From: Anaerolineae bacterium | GTDB taxonomy: Bacteria; Chloroflexota; Anaerolineae; Aggregatilineales; Aggregatilineaceae | Assembly: GCA_016930015.1 (NCBI GenBank) | Contig: JAFGHR010000124.1 | Location: forward strand, 32,411-96,410 | Length of the DNA: 64,000 nucleotides | Direction of reading: 5' to 3' | Shown here: positions 1,856 to 59,065 of the stretch, one piece after another | Numbering within the stretch: the stretch's first letter is position 1 | Layout of the letters: each line of letters begins with the position of its first letter | Translations under genes and position numbers: made by a program | The notes under the pieces: model-generated | Told to the model about the DNA's origin: nothing | The model's input: the letters and a program-made list of their open reading frames with translations, nothing else | Databases searched by the model: none

Positions 1856-2188
1856 CTAGAACAGGCCCCAATCGCTTAACACGCCGTCTTCGGCCATTGA
1901 CGGGTCCCACATGTCCATACCCACTTCGATCGTAGTCGGCACGCCCAGCGTTTCCTGGCCCTTACGCCGGGTCGCTTCTAACAACTGTGGCGCATACGGG
2001 CAAAACGGCGTCGTGAGGATCATCACAATGTGCAGCCGGTCGTCTTGAATATCCAGTTCACGCACCAGGCCCAGTTCTTGCACGCTCAGGCCGATTTCGG
2101 GATCATACACTTCGCGCAGCGCCGCGCGGACCAGGGTTTCTTTTTCTTCGCGAGACATCGCGCTTGTGTCAGGAGTCTTGTCTGCCAT
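1856..2188 (-). CDS. DUF59/MIP18-family Fe-S assembly protein, SufT-like
   Basis: REVYDPEIGLSVQELGLVRELDIQDDRLHIVMILTTPFCPYAP is typical DUF59/PaaD-like; located beside suf genes. Confidence 0.85.
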   Translation of the reverse strand: MADKTPDTSAMSREEKETLVRAALREVYDPEIGLSVQELGLVRELDIQDDRLHIVMILTTPFCPYAPQLLEATRRKGQETLGVPTTIEVGMDMWDPSMAEDGVLSDWGLF

Positions 2189-2317: not shown

Positions 2318-2329
2318 CGGCAGATAACC

Positions 2330-2543
2330 CAGCGACTATCGCTTCAAATGGGTGATTGGGCTATTGAGCAACGCCTTCCCCCTAATCCCCCTTCCAGCCA
2401 AGCTGGACGGGGGACTTAAACACGCGTGTTCGGAGAACACGCTGCGATCAGCCGTTTTTCCCCGCCATAGCTCGGCTGGGGAGGGGAACCGGGCGTTAGC
2501 CCGGAGGGGAGGGGCGTTTTTCGATTTTGAAGCGATAGCCCTG
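2330..2543 (+). mobile_element. MITE-like element, copy 1
   Basis: TIRs CAGCGACTATCGCTTCAAA / TTTGAAGCGATAGCCCTG; flanked by exact GCAGATAACC direct repeat (2320-2329, 2544-2553); internal body shared with copies 2-4. Confidence 0.85.
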
Positions 2544-2610
2544 GCAGATAACCACCGTTGATCGTGCGCCATCCCGCGTCGCCGAATTTATTAGAAGGCC
2601 ATCTTATTTA

Positions 2611-2640: not shown

Positions 2641-2809
2641 TATCACAGATTGTTGCGAAACATTCTCAATTGCGGCAGACTATTCTTTCGGGTTTTTTTG
2701 CCCGCAATTGAGGTCATGAATCAACGGCGATGCAGCCGGGCTAACTGCCCCGGTGCCGGGAAATCACCCCAGGCAGAGTCGTTATCGATCAGAGGAGGAT
2801 CACCAACCG

Positions 2810-3595
2810 ATGGGTGCTGCTTTAGAAATTCGTAACCTGCATGTCAGCGTCGAGAATCAACCAATCCTGAAGGGCGTCAACCTGATCGTCAAACAGGGCG
2901 AGATTCACGCGCTGATGGGTCCCAATGGGTCCGGAAAAAGCACGTTGGCCAATACGCTTATGGGCCACCCGGCTTATGAAATCACCGCCGGGCAGATCAT
3001 CTTTGACGGCGTGGACTTGATGGACCTCGAAACCGACGAACGCAGCCGCATGGGCTTGTTTATGGCGTTCCAGTACCCGGTCGTCATCCCCGGCGTAACC
3101 GTCGCCAATTTCCTGCGCAACGCGATCAACGCCCGCATGAAAGCCGAAAACCCGGACAGTAAGGGCATTCCGATTCCCGCATTCCGCAAGCTGATGATAG
3201 ACAAAATGAACATGCTGGAGATGGATACCAGCTTTGCTGGGCGTTATCTGAATGACGGCTTTTCCGGTGGTGAAAAGAAGCGGGCCGAAATTTTGCAAAT
3301 GGCTGTTCTAGAGCCGCGTATCGCCATTATGGATGAAACCGACTCCGGCCTGGATATCGACGCGCTGCGCATCGTGGCCGAGGGCGCCGAAAAACTGACC
3401 GATTCCCTGGATATGGGCGTGCTGATCATCACCCACTACCAGCGTATTCTCAACCATATCAAGCCCCAGTTCGTGCACATCATGCTTGACGGCCAGATTG
3501 TTGAGAGCGGCGGCCCCAATCTGGCGCTTCACCTGGAAGAACATGGTTACGACTGGCTCCGCGAAAAACAAAACGGCAACGGCAGCGTTAGCTAA
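2810..3595 (+). CDS. sufC: Fe-S cluster assembly ATPase SufC
   Basis: ABC ATPase with GPNGSGKST, FSGGEKKRAEILQMAVLEP, DETDSGLDIDAL; SD AGAGGAGG upstream of ATG 2810. Confidence 0.97.
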   Translation: MGAALEIRNLHVSVENQPILKGVNLIVKQGEIHALMGPNGSGKSTLANTLMGHPAYEITAGQIIFDGVDLMDLETDERSRMGLFMAFQYPVVIPGVTVANFLRNAINARMKAENPDSKGIPIPAFRKLMIDKMNMLEMDTSFAGRYLNDGFSGGEKKRAEILQMAVLEPRIAIMDETDSGLDIDALRIVAEGAEKLTDSLDMGVLIITHYQRILNHIKPQFVHIMLDGQIVESGGPNLALHLEEHGYDWLREKQNGNGSVS

Positions 3596-26082: not shown

Positions 26083-26290
26083 CAGGGTCGTCGCGTGAAC
26101 GTATAGCTAACGCCCCTCCCCTCCGGGCTTCAGCCCGGTTTCCCCTCCCCAGCCGAGCTATGGAGAGGAAAAAACAAGGTTCGCGTGTGTTCAAGGAACG
26201 CGTGTGTTTAAGTTCCCCGTCCAGCTTGGCTGGAAGGGGGATTTAGGGGGAAGGCGTCCAGTCATGACCCAGTTTGAACCAATCGCCCTG
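26083..26290 (-). mobile_element. MITE-like element, copy 2 (inverted orientation)
   Basis: Body is reverse complement of copies 1, 3 and 4; TIRs CAGGGTCGTCGCGTGAAC / TTTGAACCAATCGCCCTG; flanks TTTTTGTTGC vs ATTTCGTTGC (8/10). Confidence 0.8.
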
Positions 26291-35253: not shown

Positions 35254-35465
35254 CAGGGTTATCGCATCAAATTGAGCGTAGGTTTGTAATCGACGCCTTC
35301 CCCCTAAATCCCCCGTCCAGCCAGGCTGGGCGGGGGACTTTCCAGACACGAGTGACCCCCTGTTTTCCCCTCCATAGCTCGGCTGGGGAGGGGATACCGG
35401 GCGCAGCCTGCGGGCTGAAGCCCGGAGGGGAGGGGCATTGGTTGGGTTTTGATGCAAATACCCTC
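35254..35465 (+). mobile_element. MITE-like element, copy 3, at truB stop codon
   Basis: TIRs CAGGGTTATCGCATCAAA / TTTTGATGCAAATACCCTC; flanks ACCCGAACACC (35243-35253) vs AGCCAAACACC (35466-35476), 9/11. Confidence 0.85.
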
Positions 35466-36360
35466 AGCCAAACACCTTATGGGGTTTCCAGCGCTCATCA
35501 CGCCGTTCCAGCACAGCAAAAAACCGCCCGCCAGGATCATACGCACGCGCCAGATCATGCACCGGCTCGAACGAGTCGCCCAGCCGGACAGACCGCCCAT
35601 GGCGCACATCCTCGGTTTGGTCCGGGTTGAGATGGACGGCGGGCAGATCGGCCAGCGCCAAATCCGGCGGCAGCAGCAGATCGCGCCATGTCCCGGCCTC
35701 GACCGCCGCTTCAAAATCCGGCCACTGAACCGCCTCATCGACCGTAAACGCGCCGCTGGCCGTGCGTTGGAGCGCCGCCAGGTGCGCGCCCACACCGGCC
35801 ACCTGCCCCAGATCACGCGCCAGGCTGCGAATATAGGTCCCCGGTGAGCAGGTCACGTCCAGCGTCACATAAGGAAAATCCCACGCGACCAGGTCCAGCG
35901 CAAAAATCGTGATCGGGCGTGATTCCAGTTCGATGTGCTGCCCGGCGCGCGCCAGATCGTACAAGCGCCGCCCGTCGCGCTTTAACGCGCTGTATATGGG
36001 CGGCACCTGCTCGATATCCCCCCGGAAGCCGTCTAGCGCCTGTTCGACCGCCTCCCGGCTGACGGGATAGAAGTTTTCGGCTATCACATTTCCGCTCGCG
36101 TCGAGCGTGTCGGTTTCGACGCCAAAATGCGCCCGCGCCCGGTACGTCTTGCGCGATCCCATCGCGTACTCGCTGAGGCGGGTGGCCTGTCCCAGGCACA
36201 GCACCAGCACGCCCGTCGCCAGGGGATCGAGCGTCCCGGCGTGGCCGACTTTTTTGACCCGCGTCAAACGCCGCACCCAGGCCACGATATCATGGCTGGT
36301 GGGGCCTTCGGGTTTATCGATGTTGAGCAACCCAAACACGGGTGTCGGTAACGTCGTCAT
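35464..36360 (-). CDS. truB: tRNA pseudouridine(55) synthase TruB
   Basis: LNIDKPEGPTSHDIVAWVRRLTRVKKVGHAGTLDPLATGVLVLCLGQATRL. Confidence 0.96.
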   Translation of the reverse strand: MTTLPTPVFGLLNIDKPEGPTSHDIVAWVRRLTRVKKVGHAGTLDPLATGVLVLCLGQATRLSEYAMGSRKTYRARAHFGVETDTLDASGNVIAENFYPVSREAVEQALDGFRGDIEQVPPIYSALKRDGRRLYDLARAGQHIELESRPITIFALDLVAWDFPYVTLDVTCSPGTYIRSLARDLGQVAGVGAHLAALQRTASGAFTVDEAVQWPDFEAAVEAGTWRDLLLPPDLALADLPAVHLNPDQTEDVRHGRSVRLGDSFEPVHDLARAYDPGGRFFAVLERRDERWKPHKVFG

Positions 36361-58834: not shown

Positions 58835-59065
58835 CGGGGCGATTGCATCAAATGGGCAGTTAACTTTTTTGTGCAACGCCTTCCCCCTATTCCCCCTTCC
58901 AGCCAAGCTGGACGGTGCCCCGTCCAAACAGACTGACGGGGGACTCAAACACGCTCGAAGCCTGTGTTTTCCCCTCCATCGCTCGGCGGGGGAGGGGAAC
59001 CGGCGCAGCCTGTGGGCTGCGTCCGGAGGGGAGGGGCGTTTTTGGCGTTTGATATGATTACCCTG
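58835..59065 (+). mobile_element. MITE-like element, copy 4
   Basis: Same body as copies 1 and 3 with a short internal insertion; TIRs (C)CGGGGCGATTGCATCAAA / TTTGATATGATTACCCTG; no clear TSD. Confidence 0.75.

Follow-up and report, generated by a model that had tools for sequence, protein, structure and literature searches.

A non-coding block lying between divergent sufT- and sufC-like genes in a 64,000-nt stretch of Anaerolineae DNA (the window) belongs, we conclude with high confidence, to a high-copy family of non-autonomous type II MITEs moved in trans by an ISAs1-family transposase. The evidence comprises its ends, a 10-bp target duplication, its copy number, an intergenic bias, two orthologous gaps in relatives that are free of the element, and ISAs1-family insertion sequences (ISs) in relatives that carry the same ends and 9-10-bp duplications. 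We infer that an ISAs1-type transposase moved the family, acted in trans and has since been lost from the genome or left unassembled.

Four copies of one element in the window

The first-pass annotation had described a TIR-bounded block flanked by a direct repeat of 10 or 11 bp, and both features are present: because GCAGATAACC directly abuts both element ends, the duplication is 10 bp long, and 11 bp is reached only by including the terminal G of the element (Table 1). Copy 1 has an inverted core, CTATCGCTTCAAA (2336-2348) and TTTGAAGCGATAG (2526-2538); its outermost bases on the left read CAGCGA, altered from CAGGG, and those on the right CCCTG. The same body had been reported at three further places, and all three copies were found, diverged, with body matches between window copies down to E 3e-43. 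The claim that every copy is intergenic stands except for copy 3, whose last two bases are part of the truB stop codon. This stop, a TGA on the minus strand (35464-35466), is formed at the copy 3 junction, and the last base of copy 3 deviates from the TIR consensus. The window had been said to lack a transposase, and for the ISAs1 family this is so, the genome's one ISAs1 gene sitting outside it.

Table 1 Features of the window: the MITE copies, the termini of copy 1 and its neighbouring genes.
Feature	Position	Strand	Details
MITE copy 1	2330..2543	+	214 bp; TIRs, perfect 10-bp TSD, 70-copy family
Left TIR, copy 1	2330..2348	+	CAGCGACTATCGCTTCAAA; end altered from CAGGG
Right TIR, copy 1	2526..2543	-	reads inwards CAGGGCTATCGCTTCAAA; 0 mismatches to family pattern (C40:34936-34953)
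Left target-site duplication (TSD), copy 1	2320..2329	.	GCAGATAACC
Right target-site duplication (TSD), copy 1	2544..2553	.	GCAGATAACC
MITE copy 2	26083..26290	-	208 bp; left TIR degraded; TSD TTTTTGTTGC/ATTTCGTTGC, 8/10
MITE copy 3	35254..35465	+	212 bp; ribF-truB gap, touches truB stop codon; TSD 9/11
MITE copy 4	58835..59065	+	231 bp; flanked by two DUF2298 genes; TSD 6/10, unconvincing
sufT-like gene (PF01883)	1856..2188	-	left neighbour of copy 1
sufC-like gene (ABC ATPase)	2753..3595	+	right neighbour of copy 1; SufBD-core gene next

The distance from copy 1 is 141 bp to the sufT start and 209 bp to the start of the sufC open reading frame, and its description as lying beside the suf promoter refers to position only. 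Immediately to its left (2260-2319) is a short stretch of repeats, both inverted and direct, of the GTGGCGGAC/CCGCCAC type.

A high-copy family in the draft genome

The source genome is a draft of 4.04 Mb in 132 contigs, 87.6% complete. A DNA search of it with copy 1 gave at least 46 matches, with 40 of 158 first-look candidates scored. The end pattern CAGGGYNATYGCNTCAAA, allowing up to two mismatches, occurs 195 times in the draft, against 4 occurrences of a reversed control pattern, which indicates about 100 elements. We extracted from this genome a catalogue of 70 distinct two-ended copies with a median length of 212 bp (range 116-260 bp) and a mean pairwise identity of 77%, every one of them with a copy-1-like body; their mean GC content of 58.9% (59.4% for the window) shows a body that is not AT-rich. 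Prokaryotic MITEs are multicopy elements shorter than 500 bp with TIRs of about 4-30 bp, and the family agrees on each point, its TIR being 18 bp long with a consensus of about CAGGG[C/T][T/A]ATCGCTTCAAA.

Single-ended TIR matches (L035, L039, L043, L046, L051, L057, L059, L040 and L025) were rejected as IS ends, nearly all of them being MITEs whose second end has decayed or is missing. Locus L047 has the TIR, and the family body is absent from the stretch inspected there. Plasmid and phage collections held no match to the element, and viral contigs none to the exact core pattern.

Target duplications and insertion sites

For each of the 70 copies the left flank was compared with the right at every length from 6 to 13, with shuffled flank pairs as the null. 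At length 10, 36 copies match at 8 or more of the 10 positions, 14 of them perfectly, against 0.49 expected and at most 4 in any of 1000 shuffles; a further 4 and 5 copies are added at lengths 9 and 11, and 0-1 at the other lengths. Another 25 of the 70 have no recognisable duplication, which counts against the MITE reading. The 36 duplications share no strong consensus. When insertion sites were rejoined, 26 of 60 fell within an open stretch 450 nt or more in length, as do 92% of random window positions, and targets are therefore mostly intergenic. The element at L011 is inserted within another TIR-like end and flanked by a 9-bp repeat, a nested insertion.

Copy 1 had been proposed as the youngest copy. 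Among the four in the window this agrees with its divergence from the consensus (10.9%, against 20-23% for copies 2-4, which rank 62, 64 and 67 of 70), but genome-wide it is only the 14th least diverged of the 70. Divergence and TSD decay showed no significant correlation (rho -0.16, p 0.18).

Orthologous gaps in relatives

The sufT-sufC gap, the site of copy 1, contains no TIR in 15 relatives that share the divergent arrangement. At the site of copy 3, truB and ribF are 284 bp apart here because the element sits between them, whereas in most relatives the gap is about 0-160 bp and the element is absent. The joined flanks of copy 1 align to relatives on the sufC side only; because these relatives belong to other genera and their intergenic DNA cannot be aligned across the insertion point, the absence holds at the level of orthologous gaps rather than of a base-exact empty site. 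The 70 copies, the 10-bp statistic, the nested insertion and the element-free gaps together bear out the first-pass description of the block as a TIR-bounded MITE flanked by a target duplication. Two observations had been named that could overturn it, namely occupied orthologous sites and copies without TIRs or TSDs; the corresponding searches, run as far as possible, did not refute the MITE reading.

ISAs1 insertion sequences as candidate mobilisers

Five full-length ISAs1 ISs (1210-1232 bp) in relatives share the MITE's 18-bp TIR (L084, L085, L086, L088 and L107), and their transposases match NF033564 (transpos_ISAs1). L084 (1214 bp) is flanked by a TSD, GAGACCAGCC, that matches at 10/10 positions; L086 (1211 bp) and L107 (1210 bp) have exact TSDs of 9 bp, not 10; and L088 (1212 bp) and L085 (1232 bp) have none. 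One end of L085, CAGGGTAATCGCTTCAAA, agrees at 18/18 positions with the left end of the majority-rule MITE sequence; this locus and L251 (DYGW01000144.1, labelled Thermoflexus sp.) are apparently a single record. L084 and L085 may be dead, because each contains an in-frame TAG. When the 70 copies were compared with the ISs by BLAST, the matches listed were terminal alignments of about 16-33 bp and one of 42 bp; because MITE and IS share terminal sequence only, the MITE is classed as type II.

The end type extends beyond these relatives. A GTDB genome scan with a four-transposase alignment found ISAs1 relatives in Chloroflexota, cyanobacteria, Proteobacteria and other groups. Where ends were located, ISAs1 loci elsewhere mostly have a CAGGGCAATCGC-type start or one near it, exact 10-bp duplications occur at 17 of the 48 loci examined from other genomes, and elements of other phyla combine CAGGG..ATCGC ends with exact 10-bp duplications.

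Searching the source genome with the NF033564 model returned one gene only (L031). It belongs to a complete-looking 1231-bp ISAs1 IS (L031 positions 135-1365, on contig C45) with a 381-codon open frame, the TIR CAGGGTTTTCCTATTCTC and a 9-bp duplication, GTATCCACT; its ends differ from those of the MITE, and it was rejected as the autonomous partner for its other TIRs. No helper with MITE-type ends was found in this draft genome, and since its only detected ISAs1 gene has different ends, the helper must be absent, have been lost or lie outside the assembly. A cognate transposase in the same genome is the usual evidence for ISAs1 dependence and no requirement, as a helper can be lost. The full-length IS with the same TIR that had been suggested as a search target was found in relatives and not in this draft genome.

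The missing cognate gene would also suit mobilisation by another DDE transposase family of similar duplication length (IS4 or an unlisted one), with the likeness to ISAs1 ends a coincidence, and IS4-family elements can likewise give duplications of about 10 bp. We give this explanation a slim chance, given the 18/18 TIR identity to an ISAs1 IS in relatives and the recurrence of the CAGGG..ATCGC start with a 10-bp TSD at ISAs1 loci elsewhere. Between the ISAs1- and IS4-type mobilisers originally put forward, ISAs1 is favoured, as the same-TIR full-length ISs carry NF033564 transposases, and a transposase of this family very probably spread the element. Acting in trans, it would recognise and cleave the 18-bp TIRs and insert the element at a target site opened by staggered cuts 10 bp apart, and repair would then generate the 10-bp duplication; the body, non-coding and predicted to form several hairpins, is unrelated to the IS.

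Folding and covariation

Copy 1 has a much more stable predicted fold than its own shuffles (DNA z -7.25), and one hairpin of the consensus fold carries 46 double-sided changes, against a maximum of 25 in 100 shuffles, by a covariation statistic that ignores kinship among copies. The consensus fold served as the basis for counting pairs because RNAalifold on the gapped alignment yielded no usable structure. The remaining helices are mostly invariant or show no covariation excess over shuffles, and Rfam gave nothing above threshold, its single sub-threshold match lying outside the element. The strong folding, the one covarying hairpin and the intergenic bias would fit a conserved intergenic RNA or DNA structure (a REP/ERIC-like hairpin, terminator or small RNA) repeated for host function rather than mobility, which we consider the least probable explanation, and a very improbable one, because the 10-bp statistic and the element-free gaps speak against it, the duplications contradict it as the sole explanation, and neither Rfam nor the other helices lend it support. 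A MITE can gain a host role later.

Relation to known elements

ISAs1-family ISs (NF033564) have the same 18-bp TIR, CAGGGYNATYGCNTCAAA, and the same 9-10-bp target duplications as the MITE, but they are about 1.2 kb long and encode a transposase, whereas the MITE is about 212 bp and non-coding, with the ends alone in common. Type II MITEs are those whose similarity to an IS is confined to the TIR, examples being Chunjie of Geobacter and the QMITEs of Coxiella (PMC10969869). Like type II prokaryotic MITEs (PMC10969869; Anabaena sp. 90 MITEs, PMC3542288), the family is shorter than 500 bp, has TIRs and duplications that decay with age, is mostly intergenic, forms stable hairpins and resembles an IS only in its TIR. 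It departs from them in its GC content of 59%, AT-richness being typical rather than required, and from the MITEs covered in PMC10969869 in having ISAs1 as its partner family; this 2024 review of prokaryotic MITEs mentions neither ISAs1 nor Chloroflexi. We found no paper on an ISAs1-linked MITE or non-autonomous family in the open-access literature, which is weak evidence of novelty. The elements form a new family of an ordinary, known kind. ERIC and Correia-type repeats are likewise dispersed, intergenic and hairpin-forming, with tens to hundreds of copies, and probably differ from the MITE in their ends and target duplications. The analysis documents an abundant MITE family, probably dependent on ISAs1, in an uncultured lineage that has been little studied, and ties it to concrete partner ISs; it can serve annotation, the finding of empty sites and the dating of insertions, and leaves the general understanding of MITEs unchanged.

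The end signature across the order

Counts of the end pattern in other genomes reached 349 (G104), 243 (G083), 138 (G060) and 124 ends (G013), with controls near 0. Because G013 is rich in ends and has no match to the MITE body, other bodies must use the same ends; two loci of G041 (L066 and L073) share the TIR and have different bodies. Among 30 element candidates in other genomes, 12 have a duplication of length 10 and hardly any have one of another length. Such MITEs look widespread in the order, with the end signature recurring in many genomes and on other bodies too; one 18-bp signature marks MITE-like elements order-wide. It is conceivable, though we think it unlikely, that unrelated hairpin-rich bodies repeatedly captured ISAs1-type ends, so that MITEs dependent on ISAs1 radiated across the order (to as many as about 350 ends per genome), outlived their helper ISs and may now supply intergenic terminators or mRNA structures.

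Several arrangements of the ends were observed in single genomes. At two places in G016 (C156:3172-3527 and C205:4831-5234), direct-orientation repeats of TIR ends, spaced 169 bp, and of body-like hairpins, spaced about 180-190 bp, suggest tandem MITE arrays. Two contigs of G038 (C90:32078-35105 and C198:38027-41048) each carry outward-facing TIR ends at an equal 3.0-kb spacing, possibly a duplicated segment or a composite element. In G001, many of thirteen CAGGGCAAACGCATCAAA ends lie about 120 bp from contig starts (for example, C3:122-139), as expected of a multi-copy IS that breaks assembly.
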